From: Acanthopleura granulata
Taxonomy: Eukaryota; Mollusca; Polyplacophora; Chitonida; Chitonidae
Assembly: GCA_016165875.1 (NCBI GenBank)
Contig: JABBOT010000015.1
Coordinates: 1 to 64,000, forward strand
Direction: 5' to 3'
Length of the DNA stretch: 64,000 nucleotides
Both the position numbers and the translations under genes were made by a program. The notes below the pieces were generated by a model. That model made no database searches, was not told the origin of the DNA, and worked only from the letters and a program-made list of their open reading frames with translations. Shown here one piece after another: positions 62 through 53,400 of the stretch (positions within the stretch are counted from its first letter, which is position 1; each line of letters opens with the position of its first letter).

Positions 62-2839
62 ATGAATGTCAAACAAAGTATGGAAATGCGAATGCCTGGC
101 GATACTGCTGTAAGGTGTTTGACCTTCTCACCATTGCAGCGGTAAGTATGTACCAGTAAAATCTGCTTATCATACCACTGTATTCTCACTACAGTAGTGG
201 TAAGTATGTACCAGTGAAACCAGCTTCAATTAGAAAACATATGAATTCAAATCAAGAGGCTGCATGTTCCTTTGTCTGGTTTCTTTGAATTGTGCTCAAC
301 TTGATGCCTCTGACAATGTTTACTTAAATGTTGTTGCCAAGCAGTGAAAAAGCCACCAGCAGCAAGAAGTCATTTACAGCTATCAAAGTGGTTGTGATTT
401 CAGATAATTGATGACAGCGTTCTGTGTGTGCATGGTGGCTTGTCACCCGACATCAAGACCATTGATCAGATCCGAACCATTGAGAGGAACCAGGAGATCC
501 CCCACAAAGGCGCCTTCTGTGATATCCTTTACTGCAGTTGTAACCCTCAGCCTGAATCATCCTTATATAGTCCTTGACTTCATTTGGCCCTATTGTAATC
601 CTCAGCATGATTCAGCCCTTATATAGTCCTTGACTTCAGTCGGCCCTGTCGTTATCCTCAACATGATTCCGTCCTTGTATAGTCCTTGACTTCAGTCGGC
701 CCTGTCATTATCCTCAACATGAGTTGGCCCCTATATAGTCCTTGACTTCAGTCGGCCCTGTAGTTATCCTCAACATGATTTGGCCCTTATATAGTCCTTG
801 ACTTCAGTCGGCCCTGTCATTATCCTCAACATGAGTTGGCCCCTATATAGTCCTTGACTTCAGTCGGCCTTGTAGTTATCCTCAACATGAGTTGGCCCTT
901 ATATAGTCCTTGACTTCAGTCGGCCCTGTCATTATCCTCAACATGAGTTGGCCCTTATATAGTCCTTGACTTCAGTCGACCTTGTAGTTATCCTCAACAT
1001 GATTTGGCCATTATATAGTCCTTGTCTTCATTTTGCTCGGAAATATATTTTGACGGAATTTGATTAGTCCTTGACTTCAGTTTGCCTTCAGATATTCCTT
1101 GACTTCAGTCTGTCCTTATGTTCTTTTACTTCAGTTCACCCTTACAGATTTCCTGATTTAGTTTGCCTTGTACTGGACTTCAGTTTGTTCTTACACATTC
1201 CTTGAAGGACCTCTGTGGTTAAGGTGGTAAGGGCAGCAGTGCAGCGCAGTGAGCCAGGAGCCCCTCACCAATGCAATCTCTGCGAGTTCAAACCTAGCTC
1301 CTGCTGTGGGAAGGCCTACCACTAACCTGTGGTTGTTCGTGGGTTTCCCCCCTGACTCTGACCGGTTTCCTACCACTGTAATGCTTGTTGCCTTTGTATG
1401 TGAAATATTCTTGAGTACGGTATAAAATACCAGTCAAAGAGATGAAAAAAATAGATATTCCTTGACATCAGTTTTCATACATCTTAACTTCAGTTCGCCC
1501 ATACATAGTCCTTGACTCCAGTTTGATATTAGATGGTTCTAAGGAGTGAACAAGTGTTTTAGGCAATTTTTTTGTTTTTGGTCAGACAATTTTATCAAAA
1601 TTTGTATGGTCAGGGAAAACTAAGTCTTGTTATAAAAGCTTTAAACTTGCTGAAAGCCAGCTATGTGAAAACAGTCCAGTAATGTGATATGTTTTTATAC
1701 TGTTGACATCCTTAACTCCCCGTATATCTGGTGTGGTCTGATCCAGAAGACGTGGAGACCTGGGCTATAAGTCCACGAGGGGCAGGATGGCTGTTTGGCT
1801 CAAAAGTCACTCAAGAGGTATAGTAGGGCATAGCTTGTTGAAATACATGTTGTATAGAGGTATAGTAGGGCATAGCTTGTTGAAATACGTGTTGTATAGA
1901 GGTATAGTAGGGCATAGCTTGTTGAAATACATGTTGTATAGAGGTATAGTAGGGCATAGCTTATTGAAATACGTGTTGTATAGAGGTATAGTATGGCATA
2001 GCTTGTTGAAATACGTCTTGTATAGCTAAAGTGGAAGCATCGGGACGTTAATGATTGATAATGTTCAGTATGGCCATGTTAGAGTATTGTTGAAGTTATC
2101 TTTGTACACCTGACATTCTTATTCGTGAATGACTTTGTAGGCAGTTTCATCATTGTGATCGAAAATTGTTTATAAATGCCATTGTGTTTTCATCCTTGCT
2201 ATTCATGGCGCAATTCAAAAATTTATTTGCTTGAAACAATTTTGAAATCAGTGTTACGTGCCAGTTCAGTACGCTTGGAATTATTGTACCTTTTTGTCTC
2301 TTTTTCAGTTCGTTCACATTAACAACATTAAGCTGATATGTCGAGCTCACCAGTTGGTTCATGAGGGTAAGTCGTATATGTGCACCTGTGGGTAAACATT
2401 GTAGGGCACTATTACCAGACATGCTCAGCAGCTGGTTCATGAGGGTAAGTCTGGGGCTGTGGGTGATGCCCTGCGTACAGACATAAATGCACCTGTGAGT
2501 AACCATTCTGGGGCACTATTACACTGGTAATCAGTAACACAGGCTGTAAATCTAACCCTTGATTTGCTGTGGTGTAGGATATTATGCACGACCAGTTTGT
2601 GCTATGGTTACATAAATTGAAGCATTGCAATTCTTTTGTTGTTTTCAGGCTTCAAGTATATGTTTGAGGAGAAGCTGGTGACAGTTTGGTCCGCCCCTAA
2701 CTATTGTTATCGCTGTGGCAACATCGCCGCTGTTCTCTCCTTCTCAGACTGTGATCATCGCGAGCCCAAACTTTTCCGGGCTGTCCCAGACAATGAACGC
2801 GTTATACCTTCCCGAACAACAACACCATACTTTCTCTAG
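62..2839 (+). CDS. PPP6C: Serine/threonine protein phosphatase 6 catalytic subunit, C-terminal 179 codons (5' part lies outside the window)
   Basis: Catalytic subunit of PP6, a cytosolic and nuclear PPP-family metallophosphatase that works with SAPS and ankyrin regulatory subunits. Exons: 62-141, 404-521, 1726-1817, 2309-2366, 2649-2839; phases agree at every junction. Visible family motifs are [19 protein letters not shown], the [19 protein letters not shown] stretch, RAHQLVHEG (metal-binding His), [11 protein letters not shown] and the terminal TTPYFL with the methylated Leu. The end [17 protein letters not shown] is PP6-like rather than PP2A or PP4. The family is about 305 residues, so about 126 N-terminal residues lie upstream. 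Four introns are seen; 522-1725 has U12-type signals, and three of the donors are duplicated in tandem downstream. A possible poly(A) signal AATAAA is at 4419-4424. Confidence 0.95.
540..1080. repeat. 56-bp minisatellite inside the PPP6C U12-type intron
   Basis: About eight copies of a unit containing TATATAGTCCTTGACTTCAG and CCTCAACATGA. Successive CATGA starts at 718 and 774 give 56 bp. The first, most diverged copy begins within about 15-30 nt of the 5' splice site. Degenerate fragments (CCTTGACTTCAG) continue to about 1200 and past the SINE. Confidence 0.9.
1204..1440 (+). mobile_element. tRNA-derived SINE, family A
   Basis: The head ACCTCTGTGGTTAAGG is A-box-like and GCGAGTTCAAACCTA is B-box-like. 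The body shares AGGAGCC, GGAAGGCCTACCA and GGTTTCC with the other copies. The 3' tail TGAAATATTCTTGAGTACGG leads into an A-rich end. The same family lies reversed at 22208-22471. The match to a Pol III internal promoter is by eye. Confidence 0.75.
1812..2026. repeat. 42-bp minisatellite starting at the PPP6C exon C splice donor
   Basis: Five near-perfect 42-bp units (GGTATAGTAGGGCATAGC...). The first GAGGTATAGTAG is the real exon-intron boundary at 1817/1818, and every later unit repeats AGAGGTATAG, so the donor itself is copied. Translation shows a 14-residue periodic ORF that is not a gene. An in-frame TAG directly follows the donor. Confidence 0.92.
2345..2520. repeat. Tandem duplication of the PPP6C exon D end with its splice donor
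   Basis: The exon end TTGGTTCATGAGGGTAAGTC (donor after 2366) recurs about 86 bp downstream as CTGGTTCATGAGGGTAAGTC. The flanking intron sequence (ATGCACCTGTG, GGGCACTATTAC) is also present twice. The second copy is a perfect decoy donor. Confidence 0.85.
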
Positions 2840-4632
2840 AGATTTGTGCATCAGATACAGATTTCTACTCCAATTTACAGAGGTGGGGGACAAGGGAGGT
2901 CACTCTGCTGGTGGATCAAGGGAGATAACCCGTCATCTTTTGTTCAGGTGTTTCATGACACGGACTGAAATTCACAGTACAACTAATGCAACCCAGGTTT
3001 TTGTAATGACCTGAAGTTACACTTCTTTTGTAAATTTTTAATACGTTGAACATACATGTATGGAAACTATGTTGCAAACGGAAGTGCATGCCATTTCTGA
3101 AGATGTGAACTTTTGATTAAGAGAAGGGTACACTGGAGCAGTTCAAGATCCACAAAGTGTATTTCCAGACAATAACTGATTAGCAGCCTACAATCCATAA
3201 TTGGGGAGTGTGTACATACTATATCTGTAATCCATCATCAGAACACTAACCAAAGGTGAATCAGTTAACAGTATACTAGGGCTTATAGAGAACTGATTTG
3301 GTCTGTGATTTCCATGCCCATGAAGTGCACATATGCTCATATAGAATGTGTGGTTTGAGCAGGATTGATTCCCCTTTGAACCAGACCAGGTGGCAGCACT
3401 AGCTGTAGTATACACCAGGTTTGCCTCTGCTTGACTCAGTACTGGCTTCATCCTTCAGTCTGTGGTACAAACACACATCCAGCGAAGCTGTTAACATAGA
3501 ACCTGTTCTGTCATCAGACTCCGGATCCAGTGTTCCCTGAGAGCACTGGAATTCCACAGCCAGATTTAATGTGGTTTTTGCATAGTGTTGGCACAGATAT
3601 CCCTGTTTCTGGTGTTGATAGAAGTTAGCTGTACACCTATAACTGATAAGAAGAGATTAAGCCAGGAGTGTGAATGAAAAATGCACGTATGTCCACGGTT
3701 GTATCTTAACATGTTGATGATTGAGTGATGGGCAGACTTGTCATTCAGGGGAAATCTGGGCTTGTTTGCTGTTGACTCAGGCAGATGGACTTTTAACCAT
3801 GAGTTTTTAAGCAAATGTCTATTAAGTTTTAGACAAGGTACTTTGAGAGAATGAAGGTACATATGAATTCCTGTACAATATCTTAGTCATATCCCAATTT
3901 AAACACGCAATTCCAACCAGGTCAGAATTGGTCACATGTTCTAATGATACTAATATTTCCTTGCTTTGCATGTCTTTGTGTTCAAATGTCAAATTGTGAA
4001 CAATCCAAGAAGGATACATCACTGGTCTTATCTGCATTTATCGTGGTAAGATAATGATGAAAACATCCTTCTTGACTTGAAAAATCCTGACTGCCCATTC
4101 ATGGAATGTGTTGGAGACATAAAGAATTTCATTCTACATCTTATAGCGGCATAGGTTTTTTACACAACCATATATTTTACCTGTACCACTGGCAAGGAGA
4201 GTTATGCTAATTTATTGGTCAATTACAACGCTTTGTTGTTTTCTGCTGCAGAATCTTATTTGTCAATAGAGTGAGTATGAGTGAAATTCTCAGTGACTTT
4301 TTACACTCACAATCAGGGCACAAGGACCATGTACCCTTTAACATCAGGAACAGTGACTAATGTATATACCAATACAAATAGGCTGAAGGTGTTGTACATA
4401 ATATATAAATACACGTGGAATAAAAGAACAAAAATTTTAAATCCATTTTCTTCCTTCATTTACATGCACATGTTGTGTTTGGTTGTCTAATGGGACTGTC
4501 CTGTATATCAGTCGTAGAGCGACAGAGCAATGTTTCCGAGTAGCACAGCAGTCCCATCTGTGCTGCCTCACGGAAATGCCATGCTGAAGACATCAGACAC
4601 AATGCTGCCACTGCTCAACACTGCTTGGCTCT
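2840..4632 (+). other. Probable PPP6C 3' UTR and downstream sequence
   Basis: No coding potential is convincing here. AATAAA at 4419-4424 followed by an A/T-rich stretch could end the transcript, giving a UTR of about 1.6 kb. No repeats or structured RNA recognised by eye. Confidence 0.4.
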
Positions 4633-4970
4633 GGACCACCTGTGGCCTGGTAGTCTGAGCGTCTGCCTTGAGGTCCCGGGATCAAACCTGGGTCAGGTCA
4701 CACTAAAGACTTTGAAAATGGTACTTGTTGCTACCTTGCTTGGCACTGGGCACTGAGAGGCTAGGGCAACAAAACATTACTGGTTGGCCTTGTGTCAGTT
4801 TATCTGACTGGGTGGGGTGTCATGTCTGGTGTCTTCGGCATAATGCTCCAGTGGCAGCAGACTCGCCCTGCCAAAAGGAGACACAGCGCATCTACATTCT
4901 AATGGCTCCTCATTGTCATATGACTGAAAAATTATAGCATACATCATTAAACCCAAGCATACACACATGC
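4633..4970 (+). mobile_element. tRNA-derived SINE, family B
   Basis: The head carries GGCCTGGTAGTCTGAGCG and the B box GGGATCAAACCTGGGTC, followed by a body shared with copies at 56264 and (reversed) 51486: ACTAAAGACTTTGAAAATGG, GGTGTCATGTCTGGTGTCTTC and a final part ending AGGAGACAC... Confidence 0.7.
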
Positions 4971-5383
4971 TTGACTGCAAAGTGACTATCAGTACAGCTC
5001 AGTAGTGCTCCAATGCAAGTCCACATCAAAGACAACAGAGAGGCAGCCTCTCCCTATTCACAGAAGCCAGGCCAATCCGAGTTTGCCGTTTTACCAAACT
5101 CATGATTCTTGGATAATCCACGGAAGTCACGACATCTGGTTCATCACATGAAAGGCTCACCATACTGGTGGAAGACAAGTGATCCTCAGTGAGTGTTAGA
5201 CTGCACAAATGGTTAGACAAGTGTTGTCCAGTACTTACTGTCACCAAGTCCCTGCTAACAGTGAACGCCGAGCGATGTGCAAATTTGCTGTCCAGGGCCA
5301 CCTTGATGACAGAACCATATACCAAATGTTTGATATACATATAAGCTGATTATAGTTGGAGGAAACCAGCATGTTTGAAGATC

Positions 5384-6905
5384 TATGGACGGTCTGGAGG
5401 AATACCAGAAGGCCTTACCAATAACTGATGAATTCTCCTACATGTGGAGAATACTTCCATCCTCAGTGAAAGTTCAATGTGCACATCATATTGGTTGTGT
5501 AGGCAAGCAAAGAATTCTCTACTTGGTGTGCACTTCCTTCCTCAATGAGAACTGTGTGTGTACATCATACTGATGGTATCAGCAAGTGAAGAATTCTCCT
5601 ACATGTGGGGCACACATCCATTCTCATTGAGAGCTTTGTGTGTACATCATACTGATGGTACAGGCTGGTGAGGAATTCTCCAGGTTTTGGAAACTTCCTT
5701 TTCTCAATGAGAACTTAATGTGTACACCATTTTGATAGTATAGGCAAGTGAAGAATTCTCCTACATTTGAGGCACTCTTCCTTCCTCAGTGAGAGCTTTG
5801 TGTGTACATCATACTGGTGGTATAGGCTGGTGAAGAATTCTCCCACCGGTGGTGCACACTTCCTTCCTGAGTGAAGGTCCAGTATGTACATCATATTGAT
5901 GGTATAGGCAAGTGAAGAATTGTACTACATTTGGGGCACAATTCCTTCCTCAGTGAGAGCTCAGTGTGTGTGTCCTATTGATGGTACATGTATAGGCTAG
6001 TGAAGAATTCTAATACATATGGGGCACACTTCTTCACTCAGTGTGTACACCATATTGATAGCATAGGCAAGTGAAGAATTCTCCTACATTTTGGGCACAC
6101 TTCCTTCCGCAATGGGAGCTTTGTGTGTACATCATACTGGTGGTATGGGCTGGTGAAGAATTCTCCCACCGGTGGTGCACACTTCCTTCCTCGGTGAGAG
6201 TTCAGTGTGCGCATAATATTGATGGTATAGGCGAGTGAAGAATTCTCCTACATGTGGGGCACAATTCCTTAATCAGTGAGAGCTCAGTGTGTATGTCCTA
6301 TTGATGGTACATGTATAGGCTGGTGAAGAATTCTAATACATGTGGGGCACACTTCTTTGCTCAGTGAGAGCTCAGTGTGTACACCATATTGATAGTACAG
6401 GCAAGTGAAGAATTCTCCTCCATGTGCAGCATGCTTCCTTCTTCAAGGAGAGCTCAGTGTGTACACCATATTGGTAGTATAGGCAAGGGATGAATTCTAC
6501 ATGTGGAGCACACTTCCTTCCTCAGTGAGGGCTCAGTGTTCACATCATATTGATGGTATAGGCATGTGAAGAATTTTCCTACATGTGGAGCACACTTCCT
6601 TCCTCAGTGAGAGCTCAGTGTGCACATCATACTGATGGTATAGGTATGTGAAGAATTCTATTACATGTGGTGCAAACTTCCTTCCTCAAAGAGAACTAAA
6701 TATGTATGTACTATTGATGCTACATGTATGGGATGGTGGGGAATTCTCCTGCATGTGGAGCACACTTTCTTCTTGAATAACTCAGTGTGTGCACCATATT
6801 GATGGTACATGCATAGGCAGCGGGGAATTCTCCTGTATATGGAGCATATGTCAATCCTCAATGAGAGCTCAGTGTGCATGTCAATTTATGGTAAAGGCAA
6901 GTGAT
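5384..6905. repeat. Degenerate minisatellite of about 81 bp, about 18 copies
   Basis: GAAGAATTCTCCTACATGTG, GCACACTTCCTTCCTCAGTG and GTACATCATACTGATGGTAT recur in fixed order about every 81 bp, with substitutions and small indels. It is older and more diverged than the other arrays. Short ORFs across it are repeat artefacts. Confidence 0.85.
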
Positions 6906-8663
6906 TACATGTTCTAACAAACTTCTCATCTTACCACCTGAGAGGCACTGAACTGTCAACCGTTCATTTCCACGGCCTCAAGATCCATGCAGGCCAAAGA
7001 ATCGTGAAATTTCCTTACTTAAAGCCAGAACTGACCCTACACTGTAAGTGCCTGAGGGATTGGAAGATCCGCATATCAGCCATGCCTTGACTGGGCTACG
7101 TTTGTCACATGCCTGCCAAGCACCAGTGGTGTCCCCTGAGTAGTCCGCACAGCTTCCTGCATGTTTCATACACCTTTCCACCATCTCACAAGTGAAACAG
7201 TTGTGAGCGAAAGAGTTACAAGTGAAACACTTTCAAGTGAAAACAGTCTTGAGTATCATGTAAAACACAAACTGAGAGAACAAGGCAAAATGACAGATAC
7301 AGTACAAATGGTTTGCCAACAAAAGAAAGGTTTTATTAACTATTTACAATCTTATTATACAATGAAGTGGGCATAAAATGACATGTACAGTACTTATGAA
7401 ATGAGACCAGTCAATTGTGTATTTAGAATCGCATACAAAAACAGATTTACAACAATAATTACAAGAAAATACTGATGTCAGTGATAATGAGAGCTGATTC
7501 ACTAAACTGCCATGTGTCAACATACAGTAAGGTTCTGTGTATCCCTCAATCCTGTAGTACACATTTCCTCCACAGCTACAATCACCAGGCATGTCAGGGG
7601 TCACGCTGTACATTCTAAAATTGCCTGATTTAAGCTGCAGCAACAAACACGTTACAAGGTATATGTTCATACAAACTGGTCCACAAAGTTATAGCGCTTA
7701 CAATTTCCTACCTTAATCTTTTCATCATGCAAGTATCTAACACCCCAGTTATGCCAGTAAACGTTTTACATGCACTACCTCTATGCACAGACAGCATTAT
7801 GCTTATAACTTAACACTTGCCAGTTATCATTATGACCTCAGAACATGTTCCAGCTGCTTGTGCTGCCACACCGTTCTCCCGCTGACAACTTCCACTCACT
7901 AGGTGGAAAAAGAACATTTTATTCTACACCTGGAAACTGACTTTTGCATTGAAGAGCTCACTTGAAAAAAGATTTACCAGCATCTGGTTCAATATCCTGG
8001 ATGTAACATTCAACCCAAAGATAATCAATTCTACTTATTTCCAGTGTTGGGTCCAAAAGCACATTTTTTTATATACAGATGCAATGCATGCAGTTGTATT
8101 TTGGAACCCATGTGAGAACTTTTTGATGTTTTAAAATGCCGACTTCATCTTATCAAATACATCCGACTTATTGCCTCTAAGCCTTATCAGAACGCTAAGA
8201 GTAAAATTAGGCCATAACACTGATGTGGGCCACTGGACATTTTATTACAAACTAAGACCTGAAAACCTACTAAGACTCAGAAAACAATGTTCCAGATGTC
8301 AAGTTTTACACACAAACTTTGTCAGTCTTGGAGAAGCTCAGTGCACTAAATATCACACTTGTAGGGGCTAAGTTCAAACACGTGACTTCAAGTTGTCAAG
8401 GGATCACTATCACTACACTGGTAGTAACCCTTTTATGGCTGTAAAAGGATGTGGGTTTCTTTGTCATCATTTTTGCCTCATTCTGGTATACTGCACATTT
8501 GTCTTACTCTTCCACCCTGAACACAGCCACATTTCGCCTCACCATTACATAAGGGCTAAGTTTAGAGATACCTGTGTACACTAACACTGACGCACATGTA
8601 CTGTACATGAGCTAACATTTCCCACCCAAACCTGCTGTGACGAACCATACCATTGCCGGCTGT
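6906..8663. other. Intergenic sequence without recognised genes
   Basis: Between PPP6C and the 57-bp array. Contains scattered short ORFs (72 codons or fewer outside the array tail, one of 108) with no recognisable motif, and a small cluster of AAGTGAAACA-like words at 7188-7245. Confidence 0.3.
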
Positions 8664-8746
8664 TAAGCTCCAGTGCTGGTGAACTTCTGTTAGGGTTAGG
8701 GTTAGGGTTATTACTAACCCTAAGCTCCAGTGCTGGTGAACTTCTG
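8664..8746. repeat. Interstitial telomere-like repeat flanked by 26-bp direct repeats
   Basis: TTAGGG three times plus TTA at 8690-8710, then TTAC and the inverted form CTAACCCTAA. The whole block is bracketed by a perfect 26-bp direct repeat (TAAGCTCCAGTGCTGG...) at 8664-8689 and 8721-8746. It directly precedes the 57-bp array. Confidence 0.85.
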
Positions 8747-8751
8747 AGCAG

Positions 8752-10590
8752 GATATAATCCCTATCAGGGCTGCTTTGGCCAGGGTAATGTTATTACTAT
8801 CCTTCTTCGAGCTGATCCCTATCGAGACTGCTTTGGCCAGGGTAATGTTATTACTATCCTTCTTCGAGCTGATCCTATCAGGGCTGCTTTGGCCAGGGTC
8901 ATGTTATTACTATCCTTCTTCGAGCTGATCCCTATCAGGGCTGCTTTGGCCAGGGTCATGTTATTACTATCCTTCTTCGAGCTGATCCCTATCAGGGCTG
9001 CTTTGGCCAGGGTCATGTTATTACTATCCTTCTTCGAGCTGATCCCTATCAGGGCTACTTTGGCCAGGGTAATGTTATTACTATCCTTCTTCGAGCTGAT
9101 CCCTATCAGGGCTACTTTGGCCAGGGTAATGTTATTACTATCCTTCTTCGAGCTGATCCCTATCGAGACTGCTTTGGCCAGGGTCATGTTATTACTATCC
9201 TTCTTCGAGCTGATCCTATCAGGGCTGCTTTGGCCAGGGTCATGTTATTACTATCCTTCTTCGAGCTGATCCCTATCAGGGCTGCTTTGGCCAGGGTCAT
9301 GTTATTACTATCCTTCTTCGAGCTGATCCCTATCAGGGCTGCTTTGGCCAGGGTAATGTTATTACTATCCTTCTTCGAGCTGATCCCTATCAGGGCTACT
9401 TTGGCCAGGGTAATGTTATTACTATCCTTCTTCGAGCTGATCCCTATCGAGACTGCTTTGGCCAGGGTCATGTTATTACTATCCTTCTTCGAGCTGATCC
9501 CTATCAGGGCTACTTTGGCCAGGGTAATGAGCTGATATTACTATCTATCCTTCTTCGAGCTGATCCTATCAGGGCTGCTTTGGCCAGGGTCATGTTATTA
9601 CTATCCTTCTTCGAGCTGATCCCTATCAAGACTGCTTTGGCCAGGGTCATGTTATTACTATCCTTCTTCGAGCTGATCCCTATCAGGGCTACTTTGGCCA
9701 GGGTAATGTTATTACTATCCTTCTTCGAGCTGATCCCTATCAGGGCTACTACTTTGGCCAGGGCCAATGTTATTACTATCGGCTTCTTCGAGGCTGATCC
9801 CTATCAGACTGCAACTTTGGCCAGGGTAATGTTATTACTATCCTTCTTCGAGCTGATCCCTATCAGGGCTACTTTGGCCAGGGTAATGTTATTACTATCC
9901 TTCTTCGAGCTGATCCTATCAGGGCTGCTTTGGCCAGGGTCATGTTATTACTATCCTTCTTCGAGCTGATCCCTATCAAGACTGCTTTGGCCAGGGTCAT
10001 GTTATTACTATCCTTCTTCGAGCTGATCCCTATCAGGGCTACTTTGGCCAGGGTAATGTTATTACTATCCTTCTTCGAGCTGATCCCTATCGAGACTGCT
10101 TTGGCCAGGGTCATGTTATTACTATCCTTCTTCGAGCTGATCCCTATCAGGGCTACTTTGGCCAGGGTAATGTTATTACTATCCTTCTTCGAGCTGATCC
10201 CTATCAGGGCTGCTTTGGCCAGGGTAATGTTATTACTATCCTTCTTCGAGCTGATCCCTATCAGGGCTACTTTGGCCAGGGTAATGTTATTACTATCCTT
10301 CTTCGAGCTGATCCCTATCAGGGCTGCTTTGGCCAGGGTAATGTTATTACTATCCTTCTTCGAGCTGATCCCTATCAGGGCTACTTTGGCCAGGGTCATG
10401 TTATTACTATCCTTCTTCGAGCTGATCCCTATCGAGACTGCTTTGGCCAGGGTCATGTTATTACTATCCTTCTTCGAGCTGATCCCTATCAGGGCTACTT
10501 TGGCCAGGGTCATGTTATTACTATCCTTCTTCGAGCTGATCCCTATCAGGGCTACTTTGGCCAGGGTAATGTTATTACTATCCTTCATCG
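8752..10590. repeat. 57-bp minisatellite, about 32 copies
   Basis: Unit CTTTGGCCAGGGTAATGTTA plus TTACTATCCTTCTTCGAGCT plus GATCCCTATCAGGG and a few more bases. Variants (GTAATG/GTCATG, CAGGGCTGC/CGAGACTGC/CAGGGCTAC) alternate in blocks, so groups of units were copied together. The unit is a multiple of three, so long periodic ORFs appear on both strands (up to 254 codons); none is a gene. Confidence 0.97.
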
Positions 10591-11007
10591 AGTAGTACAT
10601 AAAACACCTTGACAACAAAGACATGTGACACAACTGCCAAGCCTATGAAGTGCATCTGACCAGATTTTTGCACTGTGCAACTTCACCCAAATGTGGAACA
10701 AGATTGGATCAAAATCATCCAAATGGTTAAGTGACCAAGCCTTGAGCATGGAACAAGATGTAAGTGAACAGAACAGATCTTCTGGTGTGCTACACTAACA
10801 CGTGTGTTTAAACTCTGCCATCACACAAATCACTTATTAGCATCAGGTCCATGCAATCTTGCCTTGCAATTGTGTGAGAAACGAGAGGGTGGGGAGGGGA
10901 GAAATGTGCCAAAAAGAAATACCCATGCAAACTGTTAATTCACAAGAACATATGCATATGAAAACAAGTTTGTACACTTGTCACATGTTCATGTGTAAAC
11001 ACTTATT

Positions 11008-11570
11008 ACTTGCCAGCCAGGTGTGTGTAGACATACCACGCCAGGAAGGTATGTGCAGACATAATACACCAGCAAGGCGTGTGTTCAGACATACCACGCC
11101 AGCCAGGTGACATACCATGTCAGCCAGGTGTGTGTAGATATATGACGCCAGCCAGGTGTGTGTAGACACGCCATGCCAGCCAGGTGTGTGTAGACATACG
11201 ACGCCAGCCAGGTGTGTGTAGACACACCATGCCAGCCAGGTGTGTGTAGACATACCACACCAGACAGGTGTGTGTAGACACGCCATGCCAGCCAGGTGTG
11301 TGTAGACATACCACGCCAGACAGGTGTGTGTAGACATACCATGTCAGCCAGGTGTGTGTAGACATACGACGCCAGCCAGGTGTGTGTAGACACACCATGC
11401 CAGCCAGGTGTGTGTAGACATACGACGCCAGCCAGGTGTGTGTAGACACACCATGCCAGCCAGGTGTGTGTAGACATACCACACCAGACAGGTGTGTGTA
11501 GATATACCATGCCAGCAATGTGTGTTCAGACATACCACGCCAGCGAGGTGTGTGCAGACATACCAAACCA
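11008..11570. repeat. 28-bp minisatellite just 3' of CDC73, about 20 copies
   Basis: Unit CCAGCCAGGTGTGTGTAGAC plus ATACGACG with variants. It lies within about 130-690 bp downstream of the CDC73 stop codon, so it may fall in the 3' UTR or the termination region. The His/Thr-rich ORFs on the minus strand are artefacts. Confidence 0.93.
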
Positions 11571-11693
11571 GACATGCCAGTACAGCACAAGTTTTAAATG
11601 TTATTGGCAGCTGTGATAATCTTACAGTATTTACATATGTACATAAAAATGTGAGATACTAAGGTTTTCTGTCCGAGTCGTCTTATTTCCTCC

Positions 11694-48025
<36,332 letters not shown>

Positions 48026-48286
48026 CTTGCCTTGCTCCGGATTGCCCTCATGCTTGACTCGTACATTTCTACAGTTAATTCGCCTGCAGGGTCCATGCAT
48101 GGTGAACGTGCCACCAGTATCAACCCTGCTGCAGTTTCGCACACATAAATTTATGTTCAGTAACATTTACTTGATTATTGTTTAACGTCTCTTCTTTTCA
48201 TATAAGAATAAAGTTTGCTCTCTCTAGAATACTGTTGTTGGTTTATATTTTCGACTTGAACACCAATTGTGTTCATACATAAATTT

Positions 48287-48298
48287 ATATATATACAT

Positions 48299-48363
<65 letters not shown>
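48287..48363. repeat. (TA)n microsatellite
   Basis: About 26 uninterrupted TA units at 48310-48361 preceded by CATACACACACATACA, about 280 bp 5' of the CDC73 start codon. Confidence 0.97.
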
Positions 48364-48369
<6 letters not shown>

Positions 48370-49579
48370 GTATATAAGATAGGCGATAAGTCAGATGTTA
48401 TGACTTTGTTTTCTTCACTAATAGCCTGGTCATGCCCCCCCCCTGCCCCCCACATTGTTTCACGGCGTTGACAGTTGATAAATCCAGATTGGAAACACAA
48501 AGCCTATGAAGTAAGGGAAATGACAAAACCGATGTAGTCATAAAGACATTACGACGAGAGCGGCTTGTGTTCAGCCAGCACAGCCAACAGAACCAGTATC
48601 GGTCAACTTTCGTGTTGATAGGAAGCCGGAAAATGTATACCAGAACACCTGACAAGAGCACCGCGGACAAAACGCCCGCCTGGTAATATTCCCGCCGGAC
48701 AAAAGCCTGTCCGTCCACTGACACTTACCATTTATAGTCCCAATTTAAAGGCACAGTTGCATCTTGTTATGCTTTAGAAAGATTCAACTTCTACATGAAA
48801 GCTGAACCTAAAGGATAATTCAGGGAAGTCTAACACGAACTTTAAATATCGGTATAGGATCTTTGTTAGTTCAAATAATAGGCCTACCACATTGCATTTG
48901 GACAGTAATTTTTACAAGAAGCTCTAAAAATGTCTCACCTTATATTCACTAATGCAAAAGTTTTCACAGATTTTGAAAGTACTTCTGAAATCACCAGCAT
49001 TCCCGAAGGATAAAGTTAGGACGACCATATTAATATAACATTAGTTACATAAGTCTCAGAATCCAGGTGACAATTACGGCGGCTTGCAGATCTCGGTTAG
49101 CTGTTAGTGCCATACCATCTTTGGTTTCACTTTTCGTCTTCCACTGATACACATATGTGACGTGTGTGAGGTATGTGGAAGTAAGTCACGTGACGAAAAT
49201 ATCTTCGTTCTGGTTTCCTCCACCGGTGTAAAACTGACTGTCATATTCAGTGTGTTTTATTTGACCCTGCTAAGATGGAATGTATGTTGACTGCACACAT
49301 TCGATCCCGTGGAAATTAGCAACAGATTTCTCTGTTTGTTCTTCTATGCGTTCTACTGAAAATTAAATACACGACAGCCATGATCATGGTTGACAAACGT
49401 CGCCAAGTTGATGTCAAATAGGCCTATATCATAGTTCCTTCACCAATACTTCACAACTCAAGATATCAGTAAAGATGGTGGACAGAAGAACAAAACTGTT
49501 CGATGTGATGCCTGGTTGGCCGAGTTGCAGTTTGTAAGTCCACCATTTTGGTTAGATCGCACGCAATGAGCTCTTGGAT

Positions 49580-49830
49580 AAATGGTATAGCCATCTTTAA
49601 TGATATCATGAATTGAATTCAAGATATTAAGAATTGAATTCATGAGATAATTAACAACACTAATGATATTTTTAATTTGACTAAAACATCAAAAAATGGT
49701 CAGTATTCCAGATATCATTAAATGAATTGATGATATCTTAAATTCAATTCGCCATATCATGACTCCATTTCTTGATTTATTACATAACTTCATGACATCT
49801 TAAATTATTTTAAGATATCACAAAAACTGG
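49580..49830. repeat. A/T-rich block of imperfect inverted repeats
   Basis: GATATCATGAATTGAATTCA, then AAGATATTAAGAATTGAATT, then GATATCTTAAATTCAATTCG and TTAAGATATC. Words and their reverse complements alternate, so the strand could fold extensively. It resembles the inside of a palindromic MITE, but no terminal repeats or target duplication were established. Confidence 0.5.
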
Positions 49831-50448
49831 AATAAAAAGTAAAACGGCTAATCATACGGTAGACCTACATACGCTACCCAAGTTCCTGTATATCAGCTTG
49901 TAGCTTGGAAAACTACTAGAGCGTAAGTGACCTGGGTCGAGGGAACTGAGTTCGAATCTGTTTCTTTGATTCCTCCTGGTCACACAAAATCAGTTTATAA
50001 TGTTAGCCTGACATACAAGGCATTCATCATGTCTAGATACCGTAATCATGCAGTGTTCTAGCCTTGATTTCAGTTTTTCCCCATGAAGTGGGACTGTGAA
50101 TAAACAAACTATCCTCTTGTGATTAATTTGGCTACAGTTTTATTTCCAGATAAGAAAAAATTAAATTGAGGATTATGGTAGGTTCATAGGCATAGAACAG
50201 GTTCGACAAAACCAATAGCTGTCAGGAGTACGTAACCGTTTGGCTTTTTAGTGAATGTACCAGTCTATTGAGATTATAAAACGATCCACTTTATATCTGG
50301 ATCGGTTAAAAAGTTGTCTCCCTACTGACAGTGCTTTCATTCAATCAAACACTCTTTAATTCTTTTAATATGCGAATCAATGCAGTATGCACAATTATCC
50401 CTTCACGATATGATAACATTTTTGTCGAAATGTTAGAGGCTATTCAAG

Positions 50449-53400
50449 ATGGCTGCGCCCACGATCAAGGTGATGGAGAATGATACTCAGGTTGCAAACG
50501 AAGTGTGCGCGTTTATAATCGAAAAAGCAAACAATGCTGTTAAACAGAAGGGGTTATTCACCATTGGACTTTCAGGTGAGACGGGTGTCAACAAAAGATA
50601 TTTCGTGTTTTTGCTCTCGGTGCCTGACTTCCTGGTTGGCATGTGCTATGATGTTGCCTTATTGGGCCTAGGTCGACTTGGGCACGTTGAGTAACCTAAT
50701 GCCCGACTCCCAACTTTACACCAGCTATCCCTGTCATTTTGAGATCGTGCTGTGTCAGATATGTGATGCTCTTGAACGCTAAGTCAATCTTGCTTCGGAT
50801 GTCACCATTTTCAATGGCAGGGATTTGACTAATGATGTCGCGCTAGACACAAGAAGTATAGAAGTTATCTCCCCTCAACAGTAGTGCCAGTAGTTCCCTG
50901 CGCAGTATCCCGTGGATAGGTAAAGCGTTTTGTGATGTGGTGAGCAGCTGTAGATTTAAAAGCAAAACAAGAAAACTTTCTCAATTTTCTACATTGCTGT
51001 ATTCCTGTGTAGTTTCAAACTTTCCAACATTTTCATATTTCATGTTGCTGCAGTTTTGAAAGTTATTTGCCTGCCATTGTGAACCCTCACTTCTTTCTTG
51101 TATTGTATGACAGTTGCCTTAAACTGGGCATGTATTCACCACAGTACACCATGGGCACATTTTGAAAAAAGATTAACTCACAGTAGTGGTCCACTGTTTG
51201 TAGATGACATGGTATTTTAGTGAGGCAGCACTGTGATTTTCTCTGGGACTGTCTCTTGTCTCCTCTGTACATAATTATCCAGTTAATAGCTCGATGAACT
51301 GTGTAACATTTATTCTGCTAAAATCCTTATTGGGACTGGTACTCTTAAATGATAATGCATGTTTTCATTTTCACGTTTGTAAACATATACATGTATGTAT
51401 GCTTGGGTTTTACGTTATATTCAACAATTTTTCAGTCAAATGATGACGAGGACCTTAGAATGTATATATACTGTGTCTTCTTGTGGCAGGACGAGTCCGT
51501 ACTGCTGAAGTTCTGCTGCCACTAAATCATCATGCAGAACACACCAGACATGACACCCAACCCGTTCACATTATACTGACACTGGACATCCAGTCCTGTT
51601 TCCTTCATCTAACCTATCGGTACTGAGCACCACACCAAGTGAGGCAGCAGCAAGTACAATTTTTAAAGTGTTTGGTATGACCCTGAGCCAGGTTTGACCC
51701 CAAATCTTCCAAGGCAGATGCTCTAACCAACAGGTCACCGAGGTGGTTGTGCTTGTAAATGAAGTGTATGTGTCTTTATGCACACTCAGTCTGTCCAAAC
51801 TACCAGATATGCCTGGAACCAGATGGCTGTCAGTGTATGTTAAAGTCAAGGATATGTGATATGAGATCTGTTACATTGCATGTATAGTACTTGTAGAATA
51901 CTATAAAACTTTACATAGTGTTTCAACTTGTTTTCTCTGTTTACAGGTGGCAGTGTGTCCAAATTTCTGAGCATGGGCCTGCCGAAGTTAGAAACAGACT
52001 GGTCAAAATGGAGAGTGTTTTTCTGTGATGAGAGGCATGTACCTCCTACAGACCCGGAGTGTACATACCAAATCTATGTGGACAATTTGCTGTCTAAGGT
52101 GCCACTGAAGAAAGAACATGTCTACCCTATAGACTGGACTGTGTCAGGTAATTTAGCACCCCCAAGGCCATCAAAGGCAATAATTTGGATATATCAGTAA
52201 TTAATTGGATATACATGTAGTAATAAATGTTTTTCGTGTAATAATAAGTATTTTTACATGTAGCAAGACTATACTTTTATCACGTTGGTTGGAGTGTCGA
52301 TCTGGAATGAATCCGATGTGGATTACATACTTTGGCACGTGTATAAACTTTTAGTAATTTACAGTGTTCTAACATGACTACACTCACAGACTTAACAAAA
52401 CTAAAGGTGTGATACGAAGATGTGTGAATCCTGAGTGATCTGCTCAGGAATGCTGGACAGCCTCGCATGTAAATCTGTAATGTCTTCTGGATATTACAGT
52501 GGAAGAAGCAGCTATAGATTACAGGAAGAAGTTACGTGAGGTCTTCCCTGAGTCTGATCTGCCCCGCTTTGATGTTCTGGTGTTAGGCATGGGACCAGAT
52601 GGACACACATGTTCCTTGTTTCCAGGACACAGGCTGTTACAGGTGAGTATGGGATTAGCAGGGGAGGGACCAGATGGACACACATGTTCCTTGTTTCCAG
52701 GACACAGGCTGTTACAGGTGAGTATGGGATTAGCCGGGGAGGGACCAGATGGGCACATATGTTCCTTGTTTGCAGGACACAAACTGTTACAGATGAGTAT
52801 GGGTTTAGCAGGGGAGGGAAGAGACACGCACACGTGGTCCTTGTTTGCAGAACACAAACTGTTACAGGTGAGTATGGGATTAGCAGGGGAGGGACCAGAT
52901 GGGCACACATGTTCCTTGTTTGCAGGACACAAACTGTTACATGGGAGAATGTGGTTAACAGGTGAGCATGCATCCAGACTGACAAATGGGGTACTTGTTT
53001 TCCTTGTAAGTTACAGGCTGACACTTCATGCATCCAGACTGACAAATGTGATACTTGTTTTCCTTGTAAGTTACAGGCTGACACTTCATGCATCCAGACT
53101 GACAAATGTGATACTTGTTTTCCTTGTAAGTTACAGGCTGACACTTCATGCATCCAGACTGACAAATGTGATACTTGTTTTCGGGATACATTTTGTTGCA
53201 GATAAGGGTTGTAGATGGGGGACACCACAAGCATAACAAGCCAAAAACTCTTAAACTGAGTCCATGGGAAGGAATTGTCATGAGACTCAGCTAGTTGTGT
53301 GGAGTCCCAGTCTCCCGGATTCAAAACTGATGACTGGGGTACAACAGCTGTTGACGGGTGTGTTTCTTGTGCATACAAGAGCATACAGGACCCGACGCAG

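Follow-up and report, generated by a model that had tools for sequence, protein, structure and literature searches.

Results

Tandem Repeats Spanning Exon-Intron Boundaries

Tandem repeats whose unit extends across a splice junction and carries a copy of the splice site were found at 10 of the 277 modelled junctions (57 in the window, i.e., the whole 64-kb stretch analysed here, and 220 elsewhere), in five of eleven genes. Random tandem duplication made harmless by splicing, rather than copying aimed at the junctions, is the probable explanation of these straddling arrays, and the clearest signal of the analysis is the absence of tandem arrays from positions where they would alter a protein.

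The window represents the first 64 kb of its contig in an assembly of 606.5 Mb. Exons were placed with the use of reading frames, splice signals and homology, which gave 57 splice junctions instead of the approximately 45 that the original prediction had regarded as visible. The modelled genes are as follows:

PPP6C, + strand, 5 exons in the window, partial gene
CDC73, minus strand, 14 exons
PGLS, + strand, 5 exons
GH5 mannanase, 6 exons, incomplete model

Pfam confirmed CDC73, the PGLS family and the metallophosphatase domain in PPP6C. The best matches of the GH5 mannanase were the PDB chains 3vup and 2c0h, the Aplysia and Mytilus enzymes, which points to a mollusc as the probable source. A separate spliced aligner, supplied with a human CDC73 template, gave the same introns as the manual CDC73 model in all eight resolved cases. 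No Rfam element was found in the window at the gathering score, and the open reading frames of the flanking 60 kb yielded no gene model usable for the counts.

Two paralogues of ~135 aa with two exons each, likewise included in the 57 junctions, lie on the + strand (25207-27193 and 31446-33348), nested in the ~20-kb intron 11 of CDC73; a Pfam scan of one of the two gave no match, and a further partial copy seems to be present near 22582-22710. The PPP6C intron 521-1726 bears U12-type signals (ATATCCTTT at the 5′ end and TCCTTAAC just before the 3′ end) and apparently AT-AT termini; a 56-bp minisatellite begins a few bases inside its donor.

In a systematic scan, 7 of the 57 window junctions had a significant tandem copy no more than 300 bp away, the identical seven being obtained at three probe lengths. 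Eight straddled junctions had been predicted; seven of them were confirmed, and the eighth, the CDC73 exon 4 donor, is only abutted by its array. The seven confirmed units measure ~36-93 bp, close to the predicted 35-93 bp. The arrays are listed below with their positions:

125..228, +, PPP6C donor after 141 (exon 62-141): a pair of copies spaced by 58 bp, with 17 bases of the exon in the copy; second haplotype of equal length
1808..2030, +, PPP6C donor after 1817 (exon 1726-1817): 42-bp unit x 5, 2-4 exon bases copied; second haplotype +87 bp
2340..2524, +, PPP6C donor after 2366 (exon 2309-2366): a pair of copies spaced by 78 bp, with 22 bases of the exon in the copy; second haplotype +372 bp
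18968..19175, -, CDC73 exon 13 acceptor (exon top 18984): ~33-39-bp units, degenerate, that include 14 bases of the exon; second haplotype of equal length
39488..39734, -, CDC73 exon 11 acceptor (exon top 39509): ~4 units of 55 bp that include 15-20 bases of the exon; second haplotype +110 bp
40406..41616, -, CDC73 exon 9 donor at 41529 (exon bottom 41530): 13 units of 93 bp, each with 81 bases of exon and 12 of intron; second haplotype -737 bp
52583..52957, +, PGLS donor of exon 3 (after 52642): five 75-bp units, each with ~50-51 bases of exon and 24 of intron
44978..45112, -, CDC73 exon 4 donor array: 25-bp units, abuts the donor without straddling it

At donors, the unit consists of the exon end plus the intron start, and at acceptors of the intron end plus the exon start; in all seven window straddlers the outermost unit is the authentic exon edge. 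The PPP6C arrays at 141 and 2366 comprise only two copies each in the window haplotype, and the exon part of the PGLS unit corresponds to a conserved 13-letter protein stretch. Two further arrays, at the CDC73 exon 4 donor (ending 1-17 bp from it) and at the U12-type donor of PPP6C, begin at the intron edge or slightly within it, with no more than one exon base copied. In the gapped scan, the CDC73 exon 11 donor lay exactly at the threshold, but the alignment was weak (score 8.5), and it was discounted as an eighth straddler. A second array (52962-53189, 60-bp unit) directly follows that of PGLS; given the similarity of its last unit to the 75-bp junction unit, one array may have seeded the other.

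The 241-bp intron 10 of CDC73 is nearly filled by the exon 11 acceptor array. This is what might be expected if the repeats were remnants of an intron-creating event, as in the Rogers model of intron birth by tandem duplication. However, this model predicts a repeat at both junctions, whereas all ten straddlers overlap an exon at one end only, and the array in CDC73 intron 10 itself stops 16 bp before the other junction. We regard such an origin as highly improbable.

Splice-Site Copies within the Arrays

Most copies in the donor arrays reach scores similar to that of the authentic donor, and some are degraded; at CDC73 exon 9, nine donor copies are identical to the authentic one and three are weaker. 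The acceptor copies at CDC73 exon 11 score below the authentic site; of these, the copies at -110 and -55 would shift the frame, and the copy at -165 would preserve it. At CDC73 exon 13, one copy scores above the authentic site. The use of inner donors would add a stop codon in CDC73 and in all three PPP6C cases. The PGLS donor copies at +75 and +225 are open and in frame, and their use would add in-frame units of 25 residues repeating the conserved 13-letter stretch (52642-52957). Judging by the intact conserved proteins, the outer splice site is presumably the one in use, and regular splicing would be undisturbed.

The high scores of most donor copies would also fit selection that retains spare splice sites as backups. 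The donor columns, however, do not clearly exceed the other columns of the unit in conservation: the minor-base frequency is 0.048 vs. 0.048/0.069 for CDC73 exon 9, 0.143 vs. 0.069/0.094 for PGLS, and 0.000 vs. 0.000/0.026 for PPP6C exon 3. Together with the stops brought in by the inner donors of PPP6C and CDC73, this makes a backup function very unlikely.

The exon portions of the units represent coding sequence of old origin, as seen for PGLS by comparison with solved 6-phosphogluconolactonases, so that the copying ran from the exon into the intron.

Arrays Are Absent from Protein-Altering Positions

None of the 64 tandem loci occupies a protein-altering position, compared with ~17.6 expected by unconstrained placement (P ~3e-12). 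Any overlap with coding sequence is shorter than one unit and confined to one end, and loci of this harmless edge type number 10 vs. 4.1 expected. Because of this protein filter, the arrays look as though they stop at junctions. Unconstrained random placement was rejected as a null, since the 7.5 junction overlaps that it predicts for the window would come mostly from protein-altering placements. We therefore used an exon-sparing null, where loci are placed at random and exon overlap is allowed at one end only and for less than one unit.

The window is rich in tandem repeats (65 TRF rows; 36 loci covering ~19 kb in a self-match scan). Tandem repeats contained 12-14% of the junction probes, 30-32% of the non-coding probes and 3-5% of the exon-interior probes. 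In the gapped scan, the junction rate of 14% equalled that of intron probes placed 22-40 bp from a junction (14 of 98), and repeat coverage drops from 41% beyond 1 kb to these 14% on approaching the junctions. Enrichment by coverage was thus rejected, junctions being less covered than other non-coding DNA.

The edges and overlaps of arrays gave another picture within the window. Array edges lying no more than 20 bp from a junction numbered 6 of 72 vs. 2.6 expected (circular shift, P = 0.048), and those no more than 10 bp away 1 vs. 1.4 expected. Under the exon-sparing null, 7 straddlers were observed vs. 1.25 expected (P = 0.0002) in this window, which is the one that had prompted the question. 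Seven detection settings applied to the whole window gave 6-7 observed vs. 0.92-1.97 expected (P <=0.003), and with intron-only loci P was <=0.005. This five-fold excess, robust to detection settings, is in favour of targeted nucleation, where transcription or splicing (R-loops, breaks, slippage) would turn junctions into hot spots of tandem duplication; the fall of repeat coverage towards the junctions speaks against it. Since the window itself had prompted the question, its excess needs an independent sample.

No Excess of Straddling Arrays in Five Genes on Other Contigs

As an external sample, we modelled POLR2A, CLTC, VCP, POLR3A and PRPF8 with the same code, obtaining 220 junctions and 28 tandem loci. 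POLR3A was included since its region surfaced in the POLR2A search. The counts leave out the POLR1A region, for which there was no template, and introns without resolution (three in POLR2A, two each in CLTC and PRPF8); the PRPF8 model ends at about residue 2093. In this small sample, in which some junctions with weak splice scores are possibly misplaced, three straddlers were observed vs. 3.96 expected under the exon-sparing null.

At a POLR3A acceptor, the exon start coding KDPSARGFVQNSF has five upstream copies 106 bp apart. In PRPF8, the donor TLTTK| bears approximately eight 37-bp units, and the adjacent donor NVDAFQ| approximately seven 74-bp units. The expectation of a multi-gene phenomenon reflecting a general process was thus borne out by one acceptor in POLR3A and two adjacent donors in PRPF8. 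PPP6C, extended by the exons upstream of the window, was also inspected in the second haplotype; this comparison stands outside the counts, and the U12-type intron was misjoined there (the code handles GT-AG only). The identical three straddlers were seen, and none was new.

The straddled fraction is higher in the window than outside (7/57 vs. 3/220, P = 0.0008), which would favour targeted nucleation, but the repeat density differs too, the window being richer. Across ~10-kb stretches of the genome, tandem-repeat coverage ranges from 0.5% to 47%. When the window and external sample are pooled, 10 straddlers are observed vs. 5.21 expected (P = 0.04).

Array Starts Are Not Fixed at the Junction

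The arrays had been described as nucleating exactly on the junctions. This did not hold: the copied exon depth in the seven window straddlers varies from 2-4 up to 81 bp, and the start falls within 5 bp of the junction in only one of eight arrays. The ratio of copied depth to unit length fits a uniform spread (KS P = 0.61 for eight arrays, the two PRPF8 arrays excluded); here the depths were read off alignments and units and depart by up to 5 bp from the values listed above. The ten straddlers comprise seven donors and three acceptors, a bias that is not significant (P = 0.34). As predicted, the units are unrelated in sequence: all 45 pairs among the seven window and three external units stayed within the 99% level of shuffled pairs, and a common unit motif was rejected on the same ground. 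Adjacent-unit identity does not differ between straddlers and other loci (medians 0.78 and 0.77, P = 0.84), so that the idea of straddlers being older or easier to detect was rejected as well.

The suggestion that junction position is the common element nucleating the arrays therefore finds no support in the external count, in the array starts, which reach into the exon by as much as the greater part of a unit, or in the donor-to-acceptor ratio. The same observations argue against targeted nucleation in general, which we consider unlikely. A narrower variant appears similarly doubtful, namely that in repeat-rich parts of the genome junctions are true duplication hot spots, approximately five-fold over exon-sparing placement, where splicing or transcription would seed minisatellites and supply splice sites of equal strength.

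Allele Lengths of the Straddling Arrays

Six of the seven window straddlers were testable in the second haplotype (contig C45), and all six were present there. Their lengths differ at four, by 2.07, 4.77, 2.00 and 7.92 units, i.e., near whole units in three; the corresponding spans are +87 (unit 42), +372 (78), +110 (55) and -737 (93) bp, and the other two are equal. Among the other loci, 8 of 18 testable ones differ by at least one unit between haplotypes. A 67-bp minisatellite at 33925-39228 occupies 5.3 kb in the window and ~3.0 kb in the second haplotype.

Assembly of tandem arrays is difficult, and disagreeing haplotype lengths, like the weak splice scores at some external junctions, might point to errors of the assembly or the gene models. 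Nevertheless, the recurrence of the six testable straddlers in the second haplotype, the agreement of the pipeline with the manual CDC73 model and the reappearance of the pattern on two other contigs make such an error extremely unlikely.

Discussion

Taken together, the results favour random tandem duplication made harmless by splicing. Tandem duplications would fall roughly at random, and a duplicated stretch bearing a single donor or acceptor would acquire two equivalent splice sites. With the outer site used (the first donor or the last acceptor), the mRNA would remain the same and the extra copy would become intron, while a duplication inside or covering an exon would change the protein and be purged. 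Surviving arrays could then lengthen or shorten on the intron side. The neutrality of the copies and a step of slippage or unequal exchange are presumed in this scheme. The window excess, the edges near junctions, the pooled count and the two additional arrays at donors count against it.

This explanation suggests that a splice junction allows an exon portion to be duplicated free of cost. Each array is a natural experiment in splice-site choice, as at CDC73 exon 9, where ten identical donors (the authentic one and nine copies) stand in a row, and the arrays provide a standing source of exon and intron variants. The exon-sparing null, in turn, makes the attraction of repeats to junctions testable in any annotated genome.

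Comparable repeats are described in amphioxus. According to PMC3087553, the globin genes BflGb6 and BflGb9 contain boundary-spanning tandem duplications whose unit number differs in two haplotypes; RT-PCR suggests regular splicing, and intron gain is proposed. Adh3 and other amphioxus loci are cited there as "mirages", as is the proto-splice-site model of Rogers, with intron gain by tandem genomic duplication. PMC3902484 adds a PGBD5 mirage and cites troponin C. Somatic instability is reported for the Adh3 mirage.

The original prediction had assigned the present minisatellites to this "mirage" type, and rightly so: the unit spans an exon-intron boundary in seven window and three external cases, the AG/GT signals are copied, and haplotype lengths differ at four of six. 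Amphioxus mirages likewise have a donor or acceptor boundary in the unit, copied splice signals, differing unit numbers between haplotypes and a preserved authentic exon. The present arrays differ in belonging to another phylum, probably the molluscs, in coming from five genes of one genome and in having been examined against a tested null for position; moreover, regular splicing is reported from RNA for amphioxus, whereas the present arrays were analysed in DNA. The portion of the open-licence literature that we covered gave no report of mirages outside amphioxus, molluscs included, and the arrays described here are apparently mirage-type minisatellites outside chordates.

Intron gain according to Rogers shares with our arrays the duplicated exon-edge sequence with AG/GT, but here the repeat reaches only one junction per intron and so defines no new intron. 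Ordinary intronic minisatellites (VNTRs), to judge by the other loci of the window, resemble the straddlers in unit identity and allelic length change; unlike them, a straddler has a terminal unit consisting of coding sequence with a splice site presumed to be in use. All this suggests that mirages, rather than being an oddity of amphioxus, are to be expected as a by-product of frequent tandem duplication in any genome.
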